Shown here one piece after another: positions 11,114-59,925 of a stretch of DNA of 64,000 nucleotides. Location: assembly GCF_000701365.1 (NCBI RefSeq), contig NZ_JNIK01000002.1, positions 1 through 64,000 on the forward strand, read 5' to 3'. The position numbers and the translations under genes were made by a program. The first letter of the stretch is position 1, and each line of letters opens with the position of its first letter. Below the pieces are notes generated by a model. It searched no databases. It was not told the origin of the DNA and worked only from the letters and a program-made list of their open reading frames with translations. This DNA comes from Blastococcus sp. URHD0036 (GTDB lineage: Bacteria > Actinomycetota > Actinomycetes > Mycobacteriales > Geodermatophilaceae).

Positions 11114-13021
11114 ATGACGTCCACCGACACCCGACCCCCGACCGGCGACGCCCCCGGGCGCCCGTCGCAGCCGACGGTCGTCCGCCGCGACCGCGTCGTC
11201 ATCCGGTTCGCCGGCGACTCCGGCGACGGCATGCAGCTCACCGGCGACCGGTTCACCTCGGAGACCGCCAGCTTCGGCAACGACCTGTCGACGCTGCCGA
11301 ACTACCCGGCGGAGATCCGCGCTCCCGCCGGCACGCTGCCGGGGGTCTCCTCGTTCCAGGTCCACTTCGCCGACTTCGACATCCTCACCCCCGGCGACCG
11401 GCCCGACGTGCTCGTCGCGATGAACCCCGCGGCCCTCCGCGCGAACATCGGCGACCTGCCCAAGGGCGGGATCGTCATCGTCAACACCGACGAGTTCACC
11501 CCGCGGAACCTGACCAAGGTCGGCTACGCCGGCAACCCGCTCGAGGACGACTCGCTCGCCGACTTCCAGGTGCACCGCGTGGCCATGGCCACCCTCACCC
11601 GGGGCGCGCTGGAGTCGACCGGGCTGTCCAAGAAGGACGCCGAGCGCGCGAAGAACATGTTCGCCCTCGGCCTGCTGTCGTGGATGTACTCCCGCCCGCA
11701 GGGGAGCACCGAGCGCTTCCTCCGCGAGAAGTTCGCCAAGCGCCCCGACCTGGCCGAGGCCAACGTGCTCGCCTTCCGCGCCGGGCACGCCTACGGGGAG
11801 ACCACCGAGGCGTTCGCGGTCGTGTACGAGGTCGCCAAGGCGAAGCTGCCCGCCGGCACCTACCGCCAGATCACCGGGAACACGGCCCTGGCCTACGGCA
11901 TCGTGGCGGCCACCCACGTCACCGGCCTCGAGGTGCTGCTCGGGTCCTACCCGATCACCCCGGCGACCGACATCCTCCACGAGCTCTCCCGGCACAAGGC
12001 CTTCGGCGTCACGACCGTGCAGGCCGAGGACGAGATCGCCGGCGTCGGCGCCGCCCTCGGTGCCTCGTTCGGCGGGCGGCTCGGGGTGACGACCACCTCC
12101 GGCCCCGGCGTCGCCCTCAAGGCCGAGACCATCGGCCTGGCCGTGGCGCTGGAGCTGCCCCTGCTCGTCATCGACGTCCAGCGCGGCGGCCCCTCGACCG
12201 GGCTGCCGACGAAGACCGAGCAGGCCGACCTCCTGCAGGCGCTGCACGGTCGCAACGGCGAGTCCCCCGTCCCGGTCATCGCCCCGCAGACGCCGGGCGA
12301 CTGCTTCGACGCCGTCCTGGACGCCGTCCGCATGGCGGTGACCCACCGGACGCCGGTGATCCTGCTGTCCGACGGTGCGCTCGCCAACGGGTCCGAGCCG
12401 TGGCAGGTGCCCGACGTCGCCGCGCTGCCCACCGTCGACCCGGCCTTCGCGACCGAGCCGAACGCGCCCGACGGCTCCGGCGCGTTCTGGCCCTATCTCC
12501 GTGACCCCGGGACGCTCGCCCGCCCGTGGGCGGTCCCCGGCACGCCCGGGCTCGAGCACCGCATCGGCGGTCTGGAGAAGGCCGACGGCTCCGGGTCGAT
12601 CTCCTACGACCCGGCCAACCACGAGCGGATGGTCCACCTGCGGGCGGCGAAGGTCGCCGGCATCCCGGTGCCCGACCTCGAGGTCGACGACCCGGGCGGG
12701 GCCGCGGAGCTGCTGGTGCTCGGCTGGGGCTCGACCTACGGCCCGATCGGTGCCGCCGCCCGCCGGGTGCGGGCGATGGGCCGCGACGTGGCGACGGCGC
12801 ACCTGCGCCACCTCAACCCCTTCCCGGCGAACCTCGGCGAGGTGCTGGGCCGCTACCGCGCCGTCCTCGTGCCCGAGATGAACCTCGGGCAGCTGGCCTC
12901 GCTGCTGCGCTCCCGCTACCTCGTCGACGCCCAGAGCTACACGAAGATGACCGGCCAGCCCTTCAAGGCCGAGGAACTGCAGGACGTCTTCCTGACCCAC
13001 ATCCCCGGAGCCCACTCGTGA
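11114..13021 (+). CDS. korA: 2-oxoacid:ferredoxin oxidoreductase, alpha subunit
   Basis: Large subunit of the enzyme that oxidatively decarboxylates 2-oxoglutarate (or another 2-oxoacid) to the acyl-CoA and reduces ferredoxin. 635 aa. The N-terminal gamma-type domain (VIRFAGDSGDGMQLTGDRF, to about residue 190) is fused to the pyrimidine-binding domain (GSYPITPATDILHELS, VQAEDEIAGVGAALGAS, from about residue 255), as in KorA of mycobacteria. The ATG at 11114 gives MTSTDTRPP. It overlaps korB by 4 bp (GTGA). Its position beside beta-oxidation genes agrees with the use of KorAB during growth on fatty acids or similar substrates. Exact 2-oxoacid is inferred from family resemblance. Confidence 0.93.
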   Translation: MTSTDTRPPTGDAPGRPSQPTVVRRDRVVIRFAGDSGDGMQLTGDRFTSETASFGNDLSTLPNYPAEIRAPAGTLPGVSSFQVHFADFDILTPGDRPDVLVAMNPAALRANIGDLPKGGIVIVNTDEFTPRNLTKVGYAGNPLEDDSLADFQVHRVAMATLTRGALESTGLSKKDAERAKNMFALGLLSWMYSRPQGSTERFLREKFAKRPDLAEANVLAFRAGHAYGETTEAFAVVYEVAKAKLPAGTYRQITGNTALAYGIVAATHVTGLEVLLGSYPITPATDILHELSRHKAFGVTTVQAEDEIAGVGAALGASFGGRLGVTTTSGPGVALKAETIGLAVALELPLLVIDVQRGGPSTGLPTKTEQADLLQALHGRNGESPVPVIAPQTPGDCFDAVLDAVRMAVTHRTPVILLSDGALANGSEPWQVPDVAALPTVDPAFATEPNAPDGSGAFWPYLRDPGTLARPWAVPGTPGLEHRIGGLEKADGSGSISYDPANHERMVHLRAAKVAGIPVPDLEVDDPGGAAELLVLGWGSTYGPIGAAARRVRAMGRDVATAHLRHLNPFPANLGEVLGRYRAVLVPEMNLGQLASLLRSRYLVDAQSYTKMTGQPFKAEELQDVFLTHIPGAHS

Positions 13022-14100
13022 GCATCGACCTCGGCATGCCGCAGCTCGGCGGCCTGGACCTCGTCCCGCAGGCGGAGGCGCCACAGACGGCGAAGGACTT
13101 CACCTCCGACCAGGAGGTGCGCTGGTGCCCCGGCTGCGGTGACTACGCGGTGCTCGCCGCCGTCCGCTCCTTCATGCCGACGCTGGGCATCAAGCGGGAG
13201 AACACCGTCTTCGTCTCGGGCATCGGGTGCTCCTCCCGCTTCCCGTACTACATGGACACCTACGGGATGCACTCCATCCACGGCCGGGCGCCGGCGATCG
13301 CGACCGGCCTGGCCGTGGCCCGCCCGGACCTCTCGGTGTGGGTGGTGACCGGCGACGGCGACTCCCTGTCGATCGGTGGCAACCACCTGATCCACGCCCT
13401 GCGCCGCAACGTCAACCTGAAGATCCTGCTGTTCAACAACCGGATCTACGGCCTCACGAAGGGCCAGTACTCCCCCACCAGCGAGACCGGCAAGGTGACC
13501 AAGTCCTCCCCGATGGGCTCGGTCGACCACCCGTTCAACCCGGTCTCGCTGGCCCTGGGCGCCGAGGCGACCTTCGTCGGCCGGGCGATCGACTCCGACC
13601 GCAAGGGCCTGACCGCGGTCCTGCAGGCGGCCGCCGCCCACCGCGGCACCGCCCTGGTCGAGATCTTCCAGGACTGCCCGATCTTCAACGACGGGTCCTT
13701 CGACGTGCTGCGCTCGCCGGAGACCGCGCCGCAGCGGCTCATCAAGCTCACCGACGGGGAGCCGATCCGCTTCGGCCCGGTGGGAGACGACGGTCTCGGC
13801 ACGTTCGCCGTCGTCCGGGAGGGCTTCGGCCTGCGGGTCGCGGAGGCGGCGGACGTCGACCCGGCCGACGTCGTCGTCCACGACGCGGGCGACGTGCACC
13901 TGGCCTTCGCGCTGTCCCGGCTGTCGGACCAGGACCTCACGCACACGGTGACCGGCGTCTTCCGGGACGTGCAGCGCACGACCTACGACGACGCGGTGCG
14001 CGCGCAGGTCGGCGCGGCCCGGGCGACGGCGGAGCGGGCGGGCGGCCCCGACCTGCAGTCCGTGCTGCGCGGTGCGGACACCTGGACCGTGGAGGACTGA
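13018..14100 (+). CDS. korB: 2-oxoacid:ferredoxin oxidoreductase, beta subunit
   Basis: Thiamine-diphosphate subunit, 360 aa. VRWCPGCGDYAVLAA supplies Fe-S and TPP-site cysteines, GIGCSSRFPYYMDTYGMHSIHGR the substrate loop, and GDGDSLSIGGNHLIHALRRN with NNRIYGLTKGQYSPT the Mg-TPP motif. The GTG start overlaps the korA stop, so the two subunits are translationally coupled. No ferredoxin gene adjoins; the nearest in this window is the small 3Fe-4S ferredoxin at 55420. Confidence 0.94.
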   Translation: MSIDLGMPQLGGLDLVPQAEAPQTAKDFTSDQEVRWCPGCGDYAVLAAVRSFMPTLGIKRENTVFVSGIGCSSRFPYYMDTYGMHSIHGRAPAIATGLAVARPDLSVWVVTGDGDSLSIGGNHLIHALRRNVNLKILLFNNRIYGLTKGQYSPTSETGKVTKSSPMGSVDHPFNPVSLALGAEATFVGRAIDSDRKGLTAVLQAAAAHRGTALVEIFQDCPIFNDGSFDVLRSPETAPQRLIKLTDGEPIRFGPVGDDGLGTFAVVREGFGLRVAEAADVDPADVVVHDAGDVHLAFALSRLSDQDLTHTVTGVFRDVQRTTYDDAVRAQVGAARATAERAGGPDLQSVLRGADTWTVED

Positions 14101-18536: not shown

Positions 18537-19472
18537 GTGAAGAAGCAGGTGAAGGTCACCGGGGACTTCGGCCTCGGTCAGATGGTGCACGTCGTCCACA
18601 TGGCCGACGACGCCCAGAAGCTCCGCGAGTTCTACGAGCGCGTCTTCGGCGGCTTCGTCTACATGGGCATCGAGGAGCCGAACTACCTCGAGGTCGAGGA
18701 CCGGCACGCCACGCTGCTCATGATCTCGGATCTGTGCATCGAGACCATGGCGCCGGCGCACCCGGTGAACCCGGAGCTGCCGGTCGGGAAGTTCTTCACG
18801 AAGTTCGGCACCCACCTGCACTCGGTGGGCTACAAGGTCGACGACCTCGGTGGGCTGGTCGACCGCCTCGTGTCGCAGGGCATCTACATCGGCCGTCCCG
18901 GCGGCGGGAAGGTCGAGAAGGCGACGCCCGAACTCGGCTACTGCTACCCGAGCCCGCGCGACACCTACGGGCTCATGGTCGAGCTGTGCATGCACGACAT
19001 GCCCAACGACCCGCGGGACGAGGAGACCTGGTCGTCGCTGCAGAAGATGTGGCAGTCGCACCCGCTCACCATCGAGCGCTTCACCTACGTGACCCTCGGC
19101 GTGAAGAACCTGGACAAGGCCGTCGAGACCTACGTCGACGAGTTCCAGGCCATCCCGATCGAGCACGGCGTGGACCCCGACCTGCAGGCGAAGTACGCCA
19201 CGCTCCAGCTGGGCGACTGCCTCCTGCAGATCGCCGAGCCGCAGTCGGCCGACTCCGACCTCGGCCGCCACGTCGCCCAGTGGGGCAACATGATCTACAG
19301 CCTCCGGTTCAAGGTCACCGACCTCGACTCCGCCGAGGCGTGGCTCACCAAGCAGGGCGTCCGCTCCACCCGGCTCCGCGACACCCTCCTGATGACCGAC
19401 CCGGAGGACTCGTTCAACGCGCCGATCTTCCTGAGCACCGAGGAGATCCACGGCGACCCCTTCGCCGGCTGA
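18537..19472 (+). CDS. Two-domain VOC (glyoxalase/extradiol dioxygenase fold) protein
   Basis: 311 aa with two vicinal-oxygen-chelate halves: domain 1 from about residue 14 (MVHVVHMADDAQKLREFYERVFGG) to 150, domain 2 from about residue 180 (TYVTLGVKNLDKAVETYVDEFQA) to 300. Candidate metal ligands include the His of HLHSVGYKV and Glu in LMVELCMHD. Such proteins are extradiol ring-cleavage dioxygenases, epimerases or lyases; sequence alone does not decide. The GTG at 18537 is preceded by GAGGA. Confidence 0.85.
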   Translation: MKKQVKVTGDFGLGQMVHVVHMADDAQKLREFYERVFGGFVYMGIEEPNYLEVEDRHATLLMISDLCIETMAPAHPVNPELPVGKFFTKFGTHLHSVGYKVDDLGGLVDRLVSQGIYIGRPGGGKVEKATPELGYCYPSPRDTYGLMVELCMHDMPNDPRDEETWSSLQKMWQSHPLTIERFTYVTLGVKNLDKAVETYVDEFQAIPIEHGVDPDLQAKYATLQLGDCLLQIAEPQSADSDLGRHVAQWGNMIYSLRFKVTDLDSAEAWLTKQGVRSTRLRDTLLMTDPEDSFNAPIFLSTEEIHGDPFAG

Positions 19473-52265: not shown

Positions 52266-53425
52266 CGCAGTCCCAGCCCTCGTGCCACGATCCCGCGCAG
52301 GATCTCGTTGGTGCCACCGCGCAACGTGTAGCCCGGTGCGTGCAGCTGCGCCTCGGCCAGCGCCCGCCCCAGTGGATCCGGGGAGTCCATCGACGCCGGC
52401 ACGTCCACCACCCGGCGCACCTCGTCGACCACGTCGGCCTCGAAGGTGGTGCCGACGTCCTTAACCAGGGCGGCGGCGATGTTGGGCAGCTCCCCGCGGT
52501 CCAGCGCCGCCGCGATCCGCAACGACAGCTGCCGCAGCGCCAGCAACCGGGCCGACAACCGGCCCAGCGCCGCCAACTGCGCCGCATCCCCCGTCGAAGC
52601 GGCCCGGCGGCCGAACTCCGCCAGCAGCGGATACGTCGACAGGAACCGCTCCGGCCCGGACCGCTCGAACGCCAACTCCGCGGTCACCTGGTGCCAGCCC
52701 GCGCCCTCCTCGCCCAGCAGCATGTCGCCGGGGACGACGACGTCGTCGAACACGACCTCGTTGAAGTGGTGCCCGCCGTCCAGGATCCGGATCGGGTTGA
52801 TGGAGATGCCCGGCAGCGACAGGTCGATCAGCAACTGGCTCAGGCCCGCGTGCCGGTTGGCCGGATCCGCCGGCGAGGTCCGCACCAGCACGATCCCGTA
52901 GTGCGAGTGGTGCGCGTTCGACGTCCACACCTTCGCCCCCGACACCACCCAGTCGCCGTTCGCGTCCCGCGACGCCTTGGTCCGGATCGAGGCCAGGTCC
53001 GAGCCGGAGTCCGGCTCCGACATGCCGATCACGAAGAAGCACTCACCCGCCGCGATCCTGGGCAGGATCTCCCGCCGCTGGGCCTCGGTGCCGTAGCGCA
53101 GCAGGTTCGGCCCGGACTGCCGGTCGGCGATCCAGTGCGCCGCCACCGGCGCCCCAGCCGCCAGCAACTCCTCCGTGACCGCGTAGCGCTCCATCGCGGT
53201 CCGCTCGTGACCGCCGTACTCCTTCGGCCACGTCATCCCCAGCCAGCCGCGCTCCCCCAGCTTCCGGGAGAACGCCGGGTCCACCCCCGACAGCCAGGTG
53301 TCCACGTGCGGCACGAAGGTCCCCGCCGCCTGTTCGGCGGCGAGGAACTCCCGGACCTCCAGCCGCACGGCCTCCGCGGCCGCCGACCGCGGGGCCGGCG
53401 CCAGGGTGAGCGAGTCGCCGCTCAC
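52262..53425 (-). CDS. Acyl-CoA dehydrogenase
   Basis: 387 aa. GMTWPKEYGGHERTAMERY, GMSEPDSGSDLASIRTKA, SGAKVWTSNAHHSHYG and the C-terminal GYTLRGGTNEILRGIVARGLG are all standard. The GTG at 53425 overlaps the stop of the reductase gene (53422) by 4 bp. It probably forms a heteromer with the downstream partner gene. Codon choice here changes to unusually C-rich Arg and Asn codons, but not enough to argue transfer. Confidence 0.92.
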   Translation of the reverse strand: MSGDSLTLAPAPRSAAAEAVRLEVREFLAAEQAAGTFVPHVDTWLSGVDPAFSRKLGERGWLGMTWPKEYGGHERTAMERYAVTEELLAAGAPVAAHWIADRQSGPNLLRYGTEAQRREILPRIAAGECFFVIGMSEPDSGSDLASIRTKASRDANGDWVVSGAKVWTSNAHHSHYGIVLVRTSPADPANRHAGLSQLLIDLSLPGISINPIRILDGGHHFNEVVFDDVVVPGDMLLGEEGAGWHQVTAELAFERSGPERFLSTYPLLAEFGRRAASTGDAAQLAALGRLSARLLALRQLSLRIAAALDRGELPNIAAALVKDVGTTFEADVVDEVRRVVDVPASMDSPDPLGRALAEAQLHAPGYTLRGGTNEILRGIVARGLGLR

Positions 53426-54111
53426 GCGCGGGCCCGGCTGGGGTCGACGTGGGTCATCAGCACGCCGGCGCGGGTCTTGTAGCGCTTGTTGACCGCGATG
53501 ATCACCGCGGTGAAGGGCTCGAGCACCCGCGCCTGACGCAGCGCCCCGACGTCCACGCCGGGTCGGCCGGTCACCGCGGCCGCCAGGTCGACCACCCGGG
53601 CACGGGCAGCGGCGTCGTCCCCGCAGACCAGCACGTCCTCGCCGGACAGGTCGCGGTCCAGGTCGGCGACGCTGGGTGCCGAGAGGTGGTGGAAGGCCGC
53701 GGTCACCGTGCTGCCGGGCAGGAGCGCGGCCACCTGCTCGGCCGCGCTGCCCTCGGCGACGGCGAGGCCGTGCGGCCCCTGCGCGTCGAAGCCGAGCGGG
53801 TTGATGCACGAGACCACCAGCCGGCCGGTCAGGGCGGGGGCCAGTGCGGCGATCGTGGCGCCGCTCTCGTCCCACGGCGTCGCGAGCAGCACGATCTCGC
53901 CGGCCGCTGCGGCGTCTTCGTTGGCCGCACCGTCCACCCGGGCGTCGGTGCCCGCGGCCGCGAGGAGCTCCTGCAGTTCCGCGGCGGTGGCCGCCGCGCG
54001 GGCGGCGTCCCGGGAGCCCAGCACCACCGGGGAGCCGCTGCGGGCCAGCCGTAGTGCCAGGGCGCGACCGAGCGCGCCCGTTCCGCCGAGTACGGCGATC
54101 GTGTCGCTCAT
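53422..54111 (-). CDS. NADPH-dependent F420 reductase-like protein (NpdG family)
   Basis: 229 aa. IAVLGGTGALGRALALRLARSGSPVVLGSRD is the NADP site of the F420H2:NADP oxidoreductase family. Later VVSCINPLGF and AFHHLSAPSVADL also match. Would move hydride between NADPH and the deazaflavin F420, or reduce another small substrate. First gene of the operon with two acyl-CoA dehydrogenases. Its promoter region contains the motif shared with the ferredoxin/P450 promoter. Confidence 0.82.
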   Translation of the reverse strand: MSDTIAVLGGTGALGRALALRLARSGSPVVLGSRDAARAAATAAELQELLAAAGTDARVDGAANEDAAAAGEIVLLATPWDESGATIAALAPALTGRLVVSCINPLGFDAQGPHGLAVAEGSAAEQVAALLPGSTVTAAFHHLSAPSVADLDRDLSGEDVLVCGDDAAARARVVDLAAAVTGRPGVDVGALRQARVLEPFTAVIIAVNKRYKTRAGVLMTHVDPSRARA

Positions 54112-54158: not shown

Positions 54159-54180
54159 AAACTAGGATAAGCATTACCAG
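54159..54180. promoter_or_regulatory. Shared motif AAACTAGGATAAGCATTA, site 1
   Basis: 18 bp identical to 55669-55686, here 7 bp before the MFS start and 48 bp upstream of the divergent reductase start. It contains TAGGAT, a possible plus-strand -10 box, and GATAAGCATTACC, a near-palindrome. Strong candidate operator for a local regulon. Confidence 0.7.
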
Positions 54181-54182
54181 CG

Positions 54183-55436
54183 ATGAGCGGAACCGGTAGG
54201 GACAGACCTCCGGCGACGGGGCGGCTCGCCGTCCTCGTCGTCTGCACCGCGGCGATGGGGCTCGGCTGTGCGCCCACCTTCCTGGTGGGCTACCTGGGTC
54301 CGGACGTCCGCGCCAGCCTCGACCTCTCCGGGGCACAACTCGGCCTGCTGGTCGGGCTCTTCTACGGCGCCACCGGCGTCACGTCGATGGTCGTCTCGCG
54401 ACTCGTCGACCCCTGGGGTGCGCGCGTCTGCATCGTCGGTGACCAGCTGCTGGTCGCCCTGGTCCTGACGGCCGCCGCGCTGCGGCCGGGGTTCGGCACG
54501 CTCGCCGTCGCCAGCGCCCTGGCCGGCGCCGGTTACGCCTTCGCCAACGCCGGCACCAGCCTCGCGGTCACCTCGGTGTCGCTGCCCGAGCAGGCGGGGG
54601 CCGCGGTCGCGACCAAGACCGCCGGCATCCCCCTGGGCGCGACGCTCCTCGCGTTGACCGGCCTCCCGCTGGCCGGCGTCCTGGGCTGGGAGGGCGTCGC
54701 GCTCTGCCTGGCCGCCCTGCTGGCGGTCAACGCCGTCGCGGGATGGGTCCTGCTGCCGCGGACCGTCCGCCGACGCGGCGACGCCGGACCGCTCCCCACC
54801 TCCGGCCGGCTGCCCCGCCGCTTCGGCTGGGTCGTGCTGGCGTCGTTCCTCTACGTGCTGGGCTCCCAGCCGCTGTTCTCCTGGCTGGTCATCACGCTGG
54901 TCGACGCCGGCGTCTCCCGTTCGGTGGCGGGCGCCATCTCGGCCACCGGCACCGCACTCGGCGCCGTCGTCATGGTCCTGGCGGCCCGCCGCGCCGACCG
55001 GGCCGGCCCGCGGCACCGGGCCGTCACCGCCGCGGCGGTTGCCAGCGCCTCGGTCGCCGGCACCGCCCTCGTCTGGATCGGCGGGCACGTCGCCCTGGGG
55101 GTCCTGGTCATCGGCGCGGTCGTGGCCATCCTGGCCGATCTCGTGGGCTCCGGGTTCGCGCACGCCGTGGCCATCGACCGCGCGCCGCAGGCCGTGGGCA
55201 AGGCGACCGCGGTCATGTCCAGCGGCTACTACCTGGGCGCGCTCGTCTCGCCGCTCGTCTTCGGCGCCGCGGCGGACGCGACCGGGTCCTACGACGCCTC
55301 GTGGGCGGTCACGGTCACCGCGATGACGTGCTGCGCCCTGTGCCTGCTCGTCGTCCACCGGTGGGTGCGGCCGCCGGAGGCCGGCCGGGCCGCCGGCCCG
55401 GCCGAGACGTCCGCCGCACTCAGTCCGAGAGGGTGA
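54183..55436 (+). CDS. MFS transporter
   Basis: 417 aa with about 12 membrane segments: LAVLVVCTAAMGLGCAPTFLVGYLGPDVRASLDLS at the start, MVVSRLVDPWGARVCIVGDQ as the loop 2-3 motif. Resembles organic-acid or aromatic-acid MFS permeases. It starts directly after the shared motif and overlaps the convergent ferredoxin gene by 17 bp. Likely uptake of the substrate for the surrounding catabolic genes (inference). Confidence 0.88.
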   Translation: MSGTGRDRPPATGRLAVLVVCTAAMGLGCAPTFLVGYLGPDVRASLDLSGAQLGLLVGLFYGATGVTSMVVSRLVDPWGARVCIVGDQLLVALVLTAAALRPGFGTLAVASALAGAGYAFANAGTSLAVTSVSLPEQAGAAVATKTAGIPLGATLLALTGLPLAGVLGWEGVALCLAALLAVNAVAGWVLLPRTVRRRGDAGPLPTSGRLPRRFGWVVLASFLYVLGSQPLFSWLVITLVDAGVSRSVAGAISATGTALGAVVMVLAARRADRAGPRHRAVTAAAVASASVAGTALVWIGGHVALGVLVIGAVVAILADLVGSGFAHAVAIDRAPQAVGKATAVMSSGYYLGALVSPLVFGAAADATGSYDASWAVTVTAMTCCALCLLVVHRWVRPPEAGRAAGPAETSAALSPRG

Positions 55437-55614
55437 TGGCCCGCTCGGGACAGGCGGAGACGGCCGTGCGGGCATCGGCCTCCATCGAGGCCGGGACCGG
55501 GTCCAGCTGCACGATCGCGTGGCCGTCGTCGGCGTCGAGCTCGAAGACCTCCGGCGCGCTCATGTGACAGACGCCGTGCCCCTGGCAGACGTCCAGGTCG
55601 ACCGAGACTCGCAT
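55420..55614 (-). CDS. 3Fe-4S ferredoxin of P450 systems
   Basis: 64 aa. VDLDVCQGHGVCHMSAPEVF gives Cys-X5-Cys and the distal SACPERAI gives the last Cys-Pro; together the three cysteines of a 3Fe-4S cluster. Such ferredoxins feed electrons to actinobacterial P450s. The ATG at 55614 is preceded by GAGGGGG. It is divergent from the P450 gene with a shared motif in between, so the two are probably co-regulated. No ferredoxin reductase gene is in the window. Confidence 0.9.
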   Translation of the reverse strand: MRVSVDLDVCQGHGVCHMSAPEVFELDADDGHAIVQLDPVPASMEADARTAVSACPERAITLSD

Positions 55615-55668
55615 CGCATCCCCCTCGGGGTGGGCCGGCGCCGGCAGCGCACGGACGTTGACAGCCAC

Positions 55669-55688
55669 AAACTAGGATAAGCATTATC
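55669..55688. promoter_or_regulatory. Shared motif AAACTAGGATAAGCATTA, site 2
   Basis: Between the divergent ferredoxin and P450 genes. Includes the perfect 13-bp palindrome GATAAGCATTATC (55676-55688). TTGACA lies just upstream at 55659-55664, too close to TAGGAT for a standard spacing, so the exact promoter is uncertain. Confidence 0.7.
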
Positions 55689-55721: not shown

Positions 55722-56999
55722 ATGAGCACCGAAGACCGCAGCCCCGTCGTCGACTTCGACCACCACTCCCCGGAGCACGCCGACGACACCGTGGGCAGCT
55801 ACCGCCGGCTGCGCGAGACGGCGCCCGTGGCCTGGACGGAGAACCACGGCGGGTTCTGGGTGCTCAGCGACTACGAGTCGGTCTTCGAGGCCGCCCGCGA
55901 CGACGACGTCTTCTCCTCCCAGCGGCTGGACCAGTACGGCGGCCCGGGCCTGTCGGTGGTCATCCCGAAGACGCCGATGCACTTCCACATCCCGATCGAG
56001 CTGGACCCGCCGGAGTTCCGGTCCTTCCGCAAGGTCGTCAACCCCGTCGCCTCGCCGGCCGCCGTCGCCAAGGTCGAGGACATGATCGTGAAGTGGACGA
56101 CGTGGTTCGTCGACGAGCTGATCGAGACCGGTGAGGCCGACCTCGCCCAGGTCATCGGCGTCCCCGCCATCTGCACCATCGACTGGCTGGGCCTGCCGGT
56201 GCAGGACTGGCAGATCTACGCCCGCTCGCACCAGGCCACGCTCGCCGAGCCGACCGACAGCCCGCTGTACAAGCAGGCGGTCGAGGTCGACCTCCCCTAC
56301 GGCACCGAGCAGATGCGCCAGACCATCGCCGCCCGCGCCGCCGAGCCCCGCGACGACGTCATCAGCTACCTGGTCCAGCAGGAGGTCGACGGGCGGCCGA
56401 TCACCCAGGAGGAGGTCTTCTCCATGGTCGAGCTGCTGGTCAGCGGCGGCGTGGGGACGACGGCCTCGCTGGTCAGCCAGACCCTGGTCTGGCTCTACGA
56501 GCACCAGGACGTGCGGCAGGAGCTGATCGACGACCCGTCGCTGCTGGACCGCGCGATCGAGGAGTTCCTCCGCTACTTCTCCCCCACCCAGGCCCTGGCC
56601 CGCACGGTGGTCAAGGACGCCGACTTCCACGGCAGCCACGTGCACGTCGGCGACCGGGCGCTGCTCGCCTGGTCCTCGGCGAACCGGGACCCGAACCAGT
56701 TCGAGAACCCGGACGAGATCGACATCCACCGCTGGCCGAACCGGCACGTCTCCTTCGGCGTCGGGGTGCACCGCTGCGCCGGCTCCCACTTCGGCAAGCG
56801 CATGGCCAAGGAGATGCTCGCGCAGGTGCTCGAGCGGATGCCCGACTACGAGGTCGACCTCTCCGGCCTCAAGCGCTACCCGCGCCAGGGCGTCAACAAG
56901 GGCTGGCAGCGGATCCCGGCCACCTTCACGCCGGGCGAGCGCCGGCTGCCGCCGGGCGCGGTGCCCGAGGGCGTCTCCGCCGCCTCCGCCCGCAGCTGA
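55722..56999 (+). CDS. Cytochrome P450
   Basis: 425 aa. The I helix is VSGGVGTTASLVSQ, the K helix is EEFLRYFSP, and the heme loop FGVGVHRCAGSHFGKR carries the Cys ligand. Inserts oxygen into an unactivated C-H bond, using electrons from a ferredoxin. The ATG at 55722 has GAGGA 5 bp upstream. It is followed by a mycofactocin-type SDR (91 bp), a natural partner for oxidising the newly made alcohol. Confidence 0.95.
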   Translation: MSTEDRSPVVDFDHHSPEHADDTVGSYRRLRETAPVAWTENHGGFWVLSDYESVFEAARDDDVFSSQRLDQYGGPGLSVVIPKTPMHFHIPIELDPPEFRSFRKVVNPVASPAAVAKVEDMIVKWTTWFVDELIETGEADLAQVIGVPAICTIDWLGLPVQDWQIYARSHQATLAEPTDSPLYKQAVEVDLPYGTEQMRQTIAARAAEPRDDVISYLVQQEVDGRPITQEEVFSMVELLVSGGVGTTASLVSQTLVWLYEHQDVRQELIDDPSLLDRAIEEFLRYFSPTQALARTVVKDADFHGSHVHVGDRALLAWSSANRDPNQFENPDEIDIHRWPNRHVSFGVGVHRCAGSHFGKRMAKEMLAQVLERMPDYEVDLSGLKRYPRQGVNKGWQRIPATFTPGERRLPPGAVPEGVSAASARS

Positions 57000-57090: not shown

Positions 57091-57930
57091 ATGGCAGGAC
57101 GCATGGAGGGCAAGGTCGCCTTCATCACCGGAGCGGCACGCGGCCAGGGCCGCAGCCACGCGATCCGGCTGGCCCAGGAGGGTGCCGACATCATCGCCGT
57201 CGACATCTGCGAGGACATCGCGACGGTGACGCCCTACTACCCGCTGGCCACCGAGGCCGAGCTGGCCGAGACCGTGGCGGCCGTCGAGGCGCTGGACCGG
57301 CGGATCGTGGCGAAGAAGGCCGACGTCCGCGACCTCGACGGTCTACAGGCCGCCTTCGACGCCGGCGTGGCCGAGCTCGGCCGGGTGGACACCGTCGTCG
57401 CCAACGCCGGGATCGCCACGTACGGCCTCGCGTGGGAGCTCTCCGGCGACCAGTGGAAGGACATGATCGACGTCAACCTGACCGGCGTCTTCCACACCGC
57501 CAAGGTCGCCATCCCGACGATGATCGAGGCCGGCCGCGGCGGCTCGATCATGTTCACCAGCTCGATCGGCGGGCTCAAGGGCATCCAGCACGTGGCCCAC
57601 TACGTCGCCGCCAAGCACGGGATCGTCGGCCTGATGCGCACGCTGGCCAACGAGCTCGGCCCGCACAGCATCCGGGTCAACACCATCCACCCGACCAACG
57701 TCGACACGATCATGATCCAGAACCCGGGCACCTACGCCATGTTCTCGCCGGGCGACCCGGAGCCGAGCCAGGAGAAGGCGATGCCGGGCTTCATGAGCCT
57801 CAACACGCTCCCGGTGCCGTGGATCGAGACCAGCGACATCAGCAACGCCGTCCTCTGGCTGGCCAGCGACGAGAGCCGGTACGTGACCGGCGTGACCCTG
57901 CCGGTCGACGCCGGCGCCTACGTGAAGTAG
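57091..57930 (+). CDS. Mycofactocin-type SDR oxidoreductase
   Basis: 279 aa. VAFITGAARGQGRSHAIRLA is the Rossmann start. The family insertion (about residues 38-73) is long and clear: DICEDIATVTPYYPLATEAE through EALDRRIV. Catalytic TSSIGG and YVAAK. The insertion and the expected bound NAD identify the mycofactocin-coupled group. AGGAGCGCACGCC precedes the ATG. Likely co-transcribed with the upstream P450. Confidence 0.93.
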   Translation: MAGRMEGKVAFITGAARGQGRSHAIRLAQEGADIIAVDICEDIATVTPYYPLATEAELAETVAAVEALDRRIVAKKADVRDLDGLQAAFDAGVAELGRVDTVVANAGIATYGLAWELSGDQWKDMIDVNLTGVFHTAKVAIPTMIEAGRGGSIMFTSSIGGLKGIQHVAHYVAAKHGIVGLMRTLANELGPHSIRVNTIHPTNVDTIMIQNPGTYAMFSPGDPEPSQEKAMPGFMSLNTLPVPWIETSDISNAVLWLASDESRYVTGVTLPVDAGAYVK

Positions 57931-57990: not shown

Positions 57991-58030
57991 TTGTGGTGCA
58001 GCCCACACCATGCATATGGTGAGCCTGTTT
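57991..58030 (+). promoter_or_regulatory. P450-2 promoter with motif ACCATGCATATGGT
   Basis: TTGTGG (57991-57996) and TATGGT (58015-58020) are 18 bp apart. The -10 box is the end of ACCATGCATATGGT (58007-58020), followed after GAG by CCTGTTT (58024-58030). The 14-mer recurs with one change at 59441-59454, and CCTGTTT recurs inverted there as AAACAGG. Confidence 0.7.
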
Positions 58031-59350: not shown

Positions 59351-59383
<33 letters not shown>

Positions 59384-59425: not shown

Positions 59426-59454
59426 TGGTCAAACAGGGTAACCATGCATAGGGT
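59426..59454 (+). promoter_or_regulatory. NTF2-like gene promoter with motif ACCATGCATAGGGT
   Basis: TGGTCA (59426-59431) and TAGGGT (59449-59454) are 17 bp apart. AAACAGG (59431-59437), GTA and then ACCATGCATAGGGT (59441-59454) mirror the elements before the second P450. The same factor probably binds over the -10 box in both. Confidence 0.7.
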
Positions 59455-59514
59455 AATCCCGATCACATCGACCCGGCCGACGACGCCGTCGGCCCGCCGT
59501 CCAGGAGACGCCGA

Positions 59515-59925
59515 ATGTCCGCACGTGGAGACCTCGAGAACGTCCTCAACCGCTACTCCATCGCCTACGACCAGAACGACATGACGGAGATGGCCGACAC
59601 CTTCGCCGACTCCGCCGTGCTCACGATGCGCATCGGCGGCGGCGACCTCATCGGCCCCTTCGAGGGCAAGGAGGCGGTCATGAAGCTGATGACCGACAGC
59701 CTGGCCAGCCAGAGCGACCAGCGCCGGCACGTCACGACGAACATGGCCGTCCGCAAGGAGACCGACGACGCGGCCACCGTCGACTCCTACCTGACGCTGA
59801 TCTCGATCGAGAACGGCAAGGCCACCCTGCTGTCGACCGCGCTCTACCAGGACGAGCTCGTCAAGGAGGCCGACGGCGCCTGGCGGTTCACCAAGCGGCA
59901 CATCGAGCTCGACCTGCCGTACTGA
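59515..59925 (+). CDS. NTF2-like / SnoaL-like protein
   Basis: 136 aa. LENVLNRYSIAYDQNDMTEMADTFADSAVLTM and DGAWRFTKRHIELDLPY are the scaffold of the nuclear-transport-factor-2 fold, used by ketosteroid isomerases, dehydratases and non-enzymatic binding proteins. CAGGAG precedes the ATG. It shares its promoter motif with the second P450, so it probably acts in the same pathway. Confidence 0.85.
   Translation: MSARGDLENVLNRYSIAYDQNDMTEMADTFADSAVLTMRIGGGDLIGPFEGKEAVMKLMTDSLASQSDQRRHVTTNMAVRKETDDAATVDSYLTLISIENGKATLLSTALYQDELVKEADGAWRFTKRHIELDLPY

Follow-up and report, generated by a model that had tools for sequence, protein, structure and literature searches.

Genes and features at the locus

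The window examined here (the whole 64-kb stretch of DNA; G+C content 73.8%) contains two exact copies of an 18-base sequence, AAACTAGGATAAGCATTA, both on the + strand (Table 1). The first copy lies in a 71-base gap between an F420-reductase-like gene and an MFS transporter gene, and the second in a 107-base gap between a ferredoxin gene and a cytochrome P450 gene. The MFS and P450 genes open a catabolic cluster of ~40 kb, which occupies ~54-95 kb of contig C2 with a conserved gene block up to ~94.6 kb; the left end of this cluster alone falls within the window. Outside the window, gene calls came from a basic script based on codon bias rather than from a curated annotation. All 41 genes called between 54183 and 94640 were searched against Pfam or NCBIfam, and one of them (66601) had no family match.

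Table 1. Coordinates of the two 18-base copies and of neighbouring features in the window
Feature	Position	Strand	Remarks
18-mer copy 1, MFS promoter	54159-54176	+	ATG at 54183, 6 bases past the motif
18-mer copy 2, P450 promoter	55669-55686	+	Between and over TTGACA (-35) and CATTAT (-10)
Predicted core promoter, P450-SDR operon	55658-55687	+	TTGACA-N18-CATTAT; putative promoter function
MFS transporter gene	54183-55436	+	PF07690, E 1.1e-30; orthologues in 9/9 cluster genomes
Single-cluster ferredoxin gene, divergent from P450	55420-55614	-	PF13459, E 5.7e-15
Cytochrome P450 gene, first of operon	55722-56999	+	PF00067; 84-91% identical in 8 other family genomes
Mycofactocin-coupled SDR gene	57091-57930	+	TIGR03971, 415 bits (cutoff 300)
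NADPH-dependent F420 reductase-like gene	53422-54111	-	TIGR01915, 192 bits (cutoff 149.8); not a conserved neighbour of copy 1
Palindromic site ACACCATGCATATGGTGAG, before the second P450 gene (58069-59334)	58005-58023	+	Model 2 score 12.4; reached in its stretch by 8/3000 permuted models
Related site CAAACAGGGTAACCATGCATAGGGTAAT, upstream of SnoaL-like gene (59515-59925)	59430-59457	+	Found by both models

The cluster encodes P450s, ferredoxin, mycofactocin-coupled SDRs, acyl-CoA ligases, MaoC, a thioesterase and SnoaL-like proteins, together with enoyl-CoA hydratases, a CoA-transferase, aldehyde dehydrogenases, an HpcH/HpaI lyase, a branched-chain-amino-acid-type ABC transporter, a Zn-alcohol dehydrogenase (ADH), a luciferase-like monooxygenase, acyl-CoA dehydrogenases and a thiolase. 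In relatives it also includes an esterase and a flavin monooxygenase whose best NCBIfam match, PtlE, stayed under the cutoff. By sequence, the solved structures that best matched the first P450 were a CYP125 ancestor, P450cin and CYP142 (E 5e-52 to ~1e-43), and the best match for the second P450 was CypX (E 1e-86). These enzyme types suggest an alicyclic or terpenoid-like substrate. Just past the stop codon of the second P450 gene is a run of 32 C (59351-59382), the only run of at least 12 C or G within the window; it was absent from seven aligned relatives, and may be a slippage site or an assembly artefact.

Specificity of the 18-base sequence

When up to 3 mismatches were allowed, AAACTAGGATAAGCATTA matched twice in the window, relative to 0.00 matches expected from 100 dinucleotide shuffles. 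The whole genome of the strain (5,175,939 bases) gave 2 forward and 0 reverse matches at the same threshold, and a reversed control pattern gave 0. The original prediction had described the same 18 bases as occurring twice, in the same orientation and within 1.5 kb, and had judged a chance origin to be very unlikely; both statements were borne out. It had also named hundreds of unrelated genomic sites as the contrary outcome, and the search returned 2 sites in 5.18 Mb.

In the family, a 17-mer version at ≤2 mismatches was found in 8 of 112 Geodermatophilaceae genomes, belonging to 2 of 12 genera. Of 397 genomes sampled from the order, 7 contained the exact core ATAAGCATTATCAC, in every case at the MFS/P450 locus. 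Across six whole genomes, AAMCAGGATAAGCATTA at ≤3 mismatches produced 17 matches, 12 of them at MFS/P450 promoters; the 5 elsewhere all had 3 mismatches. The element was found at two promoters, was specific to them within the genome and was kept across species, as is characteristic of the operator set of a single regulon. Judged from these patterns, the 18-base repeat is a genuine regulatory DNA element, conserved at the MFS and P450 promoters.

Conservation of both sites and of their neighbours

The P450 was detected at a threshold of E 1e-80 in 11 family genomes, in nine of which it was 84-100% identical and encoded at one locus, while identity was 62-64% in G032 and 47% in G110. All nine genomes with at least 84% identity (9 of 112 Geodermatophilaceae) carry a site at both promoters. 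A model of the 18-mer (model 1) was built on 16 sites from eight of these genomes, and in the ninth, G058, which had been left out of training, it scored the P450 site at 33.9 bits and the MFS site at 24.5 bits. Two Blastococcus contigs had exact sites in 4 of 4 cases. In G058 the MFS and P450 genes are ~10 kb apart, with cluster genes between them, and each still has its site; no other observation indicates as strongly that the element belongs to the MFS and P450 promoters.

The element was oriented toward the MFS and P450 genes in all nine genomes, with a divergent ferredoxin gene in every one. The left neighbour of copy 1 was variable. It was the F420 reductase gene here and in the two Blastococcus contigs (with an acyl-CoA dehydrogenase beside it in one, the other stretch ending there), KorAB in G041, G042, G059 and G109, an SDR gene in G045 and G064, another MFS gene in G043 and a gene for an AMP-binding protein in G058. 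The element's orientation and spacing link it to the MFS and P450 genes, and the reductase/dehydrogenase unit is not conserved beside it. Of the proposal that four transcription units come under one factor, the shared element at the MFS and P450 promoters, probably read by one factor, was supported, and the number of four units, as put forward, was not. In the four relatives with KorAB at this position, these genes are directly divergent to the MFS gene across the motif. KorAB-like 2-oxoacid:ferredoxin oxidoreductase genes are also found in the window, at 11114-14100. They were considered as a target and rejected, as they adjoin the MFS copy in four genomes yet are 40 kb distant from the MFS gene here.

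Position of the element relative to the promoters

The arrangement TTGACA-N18-CAT(T/C)AT was present at the P450 gene in all 12 loci compared (nine genomes, two Blastococcus contigs and one contig of a metagenome-assembled genome, or MAG), with the 18-mer filling the spacer and the -10 hexamer; the element therefore overlaps the core promoter of the P450 gene. At the MFS gene, the ATG was exactly 6 bases past the motif in 10 of 11 loci, G058 being the exception. No Shine-Dalgarno sequence was evident by eye between the motif and this ATG, and this arrangement suggests that the MFS message is probably leaderless or nearly so.

The second copy had been credited with a perfect palindrome. This was not upheld, as GATAAGCATTATC (55676-55688) has 5-base arms, GATAA and TTATC, around a non-symmetric GCA. 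The inverted repeat (GATAA-GCA-TTATC) arises where copy 2 runs on as TATC. At the P450 site, the right arm was TTATC in 8 of 8 aligned genomes and TCATC in the ninth, G058. At the MFS site it was absent from 9 of 9 genomes, which had TTACC, TTAGC, TGAGT, TTAAT, TTACG or TTTTC instead, so the two sites do not have this symmetry in common.

A palindromic class of sites at other cluster promoters

Promoter alignments revealed a second class of sites in the cluster, which are palindromic with the approximate form AAYCATG-NN-CATGRTT, such as AACCATGCACATGATTA and AATGATGCGCATCATT. On contig C2, sites of this class lie at 58005 (second P450), 59439 (SnoaL), 79682 (ligase) and 84395 (LivK). In six genomes, AACCNTGCACATGATTA at ≤2 mismatches had 8 matches, all inside the cluster, and at 3 mismatches there were 11 matches, 3 inside and 8 outside. 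A model of this class (model 2) was built on 8 site rows, picked by eye, from two promoters (ligase and LivK). It was compared with 3000 permuted models on stretches placed around matches already seen: its scores on the SnoaL, second-P450, two ligase-side and acyl-CoA dehydrogenase/thiolase stretches were equalled by 2-15 permuted models, and its score on the ADH stretch by 39. The SnoaL-side site CAAACAGGGTAACCATGCATAGGGTAAT scored 11.6 with model 1 and 14.4 with model 2 (- strand), the latter being reached by 4 of 3000 permuted models. By itself, model 2 lacks specificity: the top score that it gives in the window (16.5) falls within a gene, at 18709.

A search of 631,591 bases from nine genomes with model 1 gave 8 secondary matches, all in intergenic regions of the cluster, at the SnoaL (3), ligase (2), divergent ligase (2) and ADH (1) promoters. 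As many intergenic matches were obtained with 10 of 300 permuted models, which could also match known sites and for which the intergenic share was too large, the coding mask having lacked some flanking genes of G042 and G058. Model 2 was weak on the two 18-mers (54 and 124 of 3000 permutations; 32 for both together). When the models themselves were compared, the likeness of the two classes was reached by 15 of 5000 column permutations. The 18-mer and the palindromic class are likely akin on these measures, with a link of moderate strength.

A GntR protein encoded at the far end of the cluster

Among the 41 cluster genes, one encodes a recognised DNA-binding domain. It is the gene for an FCD-type (FadR-subfamily) GntR at C2:93885-94640, on the minus strand, ~38 kb from the 18-mers and past the end of the window. 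The earlier remark that no regulator gene adjoins the element was right inside the window and missed this co-conserved gene; in reading genomes, a regulator can be overlooked because the window ends before the cluster does. The protein has an N-terminal winged helix (PF00392, 44.3 bits; cutoff 27) and a C-terminal FCD ligand-binding domain (PF07729, 86.7 bits; cutoff 24.3). Metal-binding histidines are typical of most FCD domains, and the His residues in DFH, EVH and EHM, which by eye may match these positions of the FCD pattern, were kept in an alignment of nine orthologues. GntR orthologues of 80-100% identity were found in exactly the nine cluster genomes of 112, and the winged helix (HTH) was invariant among them.

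The next-best GntR (64%) was in G032, and weaker relatives (35-47%) were in G032, G033, G035 and G041. With its P450 and GntR both at 64%, G032 had palindromes and weak 18-mer-like matches (best 9.9). Its related cluster contains three FCD-type GntR genes of its own and lacks a strong 18-mer-like site; near-perfect palindromes, TATTCATGCATATGATTAG and CAATCATGCGCATCATCGG, are at promoters of this cluster (L089:11631-11649 and L090:6125-6143).

Other regulators were considered. A resemblance to TGCA-N6-GGNTA, presumably an AraC/XylS-type signature, was considered; an AraC/XylS regulator was set aside because the fit was poor at several MFS sites and the cluster has no AraC gene. The proteins selected from the relatives' unassigned genes (two sets of 10, one of three and one of two), which were part of the genes of these loci, comprised methyltransferases, SDRs, hydrolases, a gluconolactonase-like protein, MFS proteins and others, and the only DNA-binding regulators among them were GntR/FCD proteins in G032. 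In six aligned genomes, no conspicuous site stood out before the family's own gntR gene, and an autoregulatory site was therefore rejected. The usual operator of the FadR subfamily is TKGT/ACMA, with exceptions described for NanR and BioR (PMC4494728). On inspection, TKGT/ACMA boxes were absent from both the 18-mer and the palindromic class.

Related GntR proteins in another family

An order-wide search of 397 genomes identified five further GntR proteins, 49-52% identical, in another family. In four of the five genomes (GntR 50-52%), all of one genus and hence counted as one observation, gntR is oriented divergently from an operon that contains orthologues of cluster genes, including a Zn-ADH (76-78%), an acyl-CoA ligase (69-70%), SnoaL proteins and others. 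The gap between gntR and this operon contains a conserved block, AATTCATGTCAAGGATTAGCAT. In each 20-kb locus, the top match of model 1 was in this block (AATTCATGTCAAGGATTA, 10.0) and the top match of model 2 was also in the gap (16.2-17.3); such gap scores were reached by 3-11 of 1000 permuted models for model 1 and 1-5 for model 2. The 18-mer core AGGATTAGCAT, which was chosen after being seen, was reached in the gap by 0-1 of 1000 permutations. The registers conflict, in that the full model fits AATTCATGTCAAGGATTA while in the register of the core AGGATTAGCAT its scores fall to between -3.6 and -5.5. The fifth genome, G428 (GntR 49%), had neither the site nor the orthologous operon, although its HTH has the same GRGSLREALRILEV stretch. 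The gap matches in this genus are taken as the main evidence for a reading of the 18-mer element by this GntR.

Proposed regulation and alternative explanations

We lean towards the reading in which the two 18-mers are operators of one factor that would govern the ~40-kb cluster, most likely the FCD-type GntR of that cluster. Points against it are the missing TKGT/ACMA boxes (though exceptions are described), the lack of a conspicuous site before the family's own gntR gene, the register conflict in the outside genus, the case of G428, the moderate link between the 18-mer and the palindromes, and the weak 18-mer-like matches of G032. We infer that the GntR binds and that it represses rather than activates. 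Sitting over the spacer and -10 at the P450 gene, or 6 bases before the MFS start, it would block RNA polymerase; such a block is proposed because the site fills the P450 spacer and -10 and ends 6 bases before the MFS start. A substrate or metabolite of the pathway would presumably then release the GntR, which would switch on uptake by the MFS transporter and the ferredoxin/P450 hydroxylation step, while downstream steps would be switched via the related palindromic sites (~AAYCATG-NN-CATGRTT). That a single FCD-type GntR has two operator classes, palindromes downstream and an atypical, asymmetric 18-mer set within the -35/-10 spacer at the uptake and first-hydroxylation genes, is a more tentative proposition, to which we give somewhat less than an even chance. 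If it is true, the ligand level at which the entry genes respond could differ from that of the downstream steps. From the interpretation that had accompanied the repeat, a shared, non-chance element at two promoters, probably under one factor, was retained, and the four units and the perfect palindrome were not.

A rather unlikely but serious rival is that a second regulator, whose gene lies elsewhere in the genome, uses the 18-mer as its operator, with the GntR acting on the palindromes only. The 18-mer is asymmetric, unlike the palindromic class, and lacks TKGT/ACMA boxes, and in the outside genus the full-model and core matches are in different registers, all of which would fit a separate factor. 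One lead is a LysR-type, FinR-like protein: the FinR-bound region before fprA holds GGATAAGCATTATC, 14 bases identical to the P450 copy (PMC5302815). This match came from a very wide text search (six short strings in 5.39 million papers), so that chance is likely; the shared TATC is absent from 9 of 9 MFS copies, and there is no LysR gene among the 41 cluster genes. Also against this rival, the best matches of the 18-mer model in the other family sit beside the GntR gene.

We regard as improbable that the shared sequence is a core-promoter signature alone (spacer plus -10, or the site of an unusual sigma factor) with no dedicated regulator. Its overlap with TTGACA-N18-CAT(T/C)AT at 12 of 12 P450 promoters would be expected of such a signature, and YANNNT-like hexamers were seen by eye at neighbouring promoters too. 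Identity nevertheless reaches far past the -35 and -10 boxes, the MFS copy has no conserved -35, and the genome of the strain has just two such sites, whereas a sigma factor would use many; the sequence also tracks one cluster in nine genomes and is absent from the other 103 family genomes at ≤2 mismatches. A recent local duplication or conversion without function, which 18 identical bases 1.5 kb apart might suggest, has a negligible probability and is already refuted by the conservation pattern: the flanks of the two copies differ, each site is old, occurring in two genera as well as in two Blastococcus contigs, and the copies of several genomes differ from each other with each keeping its core.

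The reading we favour, with the cluster's GntR acting at the 18-mers, pairs a repeat of no assigned role with a regulator, as a prediction that can be tested in a large catabolic cluster of the Geodermatophilaceae. If true, it would provide an operator type, without the usual TKGT/ACMA boxes, for an FCD-type GntR protein, as well as a candidate inducible promoter together with its repressor.

Comparison with known systems

The general type, a local repressor with several operators, is familiar. Among the open-access papers listed on the motif, on Geodermatophilus P450 clusters and regulators, on Geodermatophilaceae operators and on FCD GntR proteins, none was seen to describe this regulon. HypR of Streptomyces coelicolor is, like the candidate, an FCD-type GntR of an actinobacterium with a catabolic cluster (hydroxyproline catabolism), and the repressor covers its own -10 (PMC6608401). 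The HypR motif given there, CTNTGC(A/C)ATGTCAC, is only partly symmetric or of unclear symmetry, and its TGCA-ATG core is reminiscent of the second site class here (TGCACATG). The two systems differ in substrate, gene content and motif, and HypR binding is proven whereas binding is predicted here (PMC6608401). By sequence, the best solved-structure match of the candidate GntR was NanR (6on4, E 1.3e-15). NanR of Escherichia coli is likewise a FadR-subfamily protein with a non-palindromic operator, but it reads GGTATA direct repeats (PMC8012715); the candidate scored 106.1 bits against the NanR profile NF003011 (cutoff 260) and is thus not classed as NanR.

Non-palindromic conserved operators before lipid/steroid catabolic units are also described in Mycobacterium tuberculosis, for the Mce3R regulon (PMC11667970). 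The regulator there is a double TetR protein, and one of this kind was dropped because the 41 cluster genes here include no TetR gene. The strings TAAG and AAGCA are absent from the running text of that paper, which says little, since it shows the operator in a figure. FinR/fprA of Pseudomonas aeruginosa resembles the P450 locus in having GGATAAGCATTATC in the bound region, beside a ferredoxin reductase gene (PMC5302815). At 55675-55688 of the window, these 14 bases are identical to the central part of the dyad that FinR binds in the finR-fprA promoter. FinR differs in being a LysR-type protein of a proteobacterium with a longer dyad, and at the MFS copy here the dyad has not been retained; the long dyad TCTGGATAAGCATTATCCAGA of PMC5302815 was not present here, where the 14-base middle alone was found, at the P450 copy alone. 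The FinR match is probably a coincidence.

Occurrences in the wider genome collection

Of 20 stretches with AAACYAGGATAAGCATTA in the genome collection, 8 belonged to Geodermatophilaceae, covering 7 named strains, 11 to unrelated genomes and one to a contig of a Thermomicrobiales MAG. The named strains were Geodermatophilus dictyosporus, G. telluris, G. aquaeductus, Geodermatophilus sp. LHW52908, Trujillonella endophytica, Blastococcus endophyticus and Blastococcus sp. CPCC 205250. The stretches from unrelated genomes (local G+C 0.31-0.64) were taken as chance.

The Thermomicrobiales contig (AVDCRST_MAG33, CADCWK010000105.1, L048) carries the same cluster with a complete P450 promoter. Compared with the best-matching of five Geodermatophilaceae genomes, most of its proteins showed 82-93% identity, with an extra SDR (~55%) and a partial ferredoxin reductase (76%) as outliers; the contig is either mis-binned or the product of a recent transfer. 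An exact AAACCAGGATAAGCATTATCA was also observed in a Competibacteraceae MAG (L040:5910-5927), between called genes and near thiolase and enoyl-CoA hydratase-like genes, and is probably a chance match.
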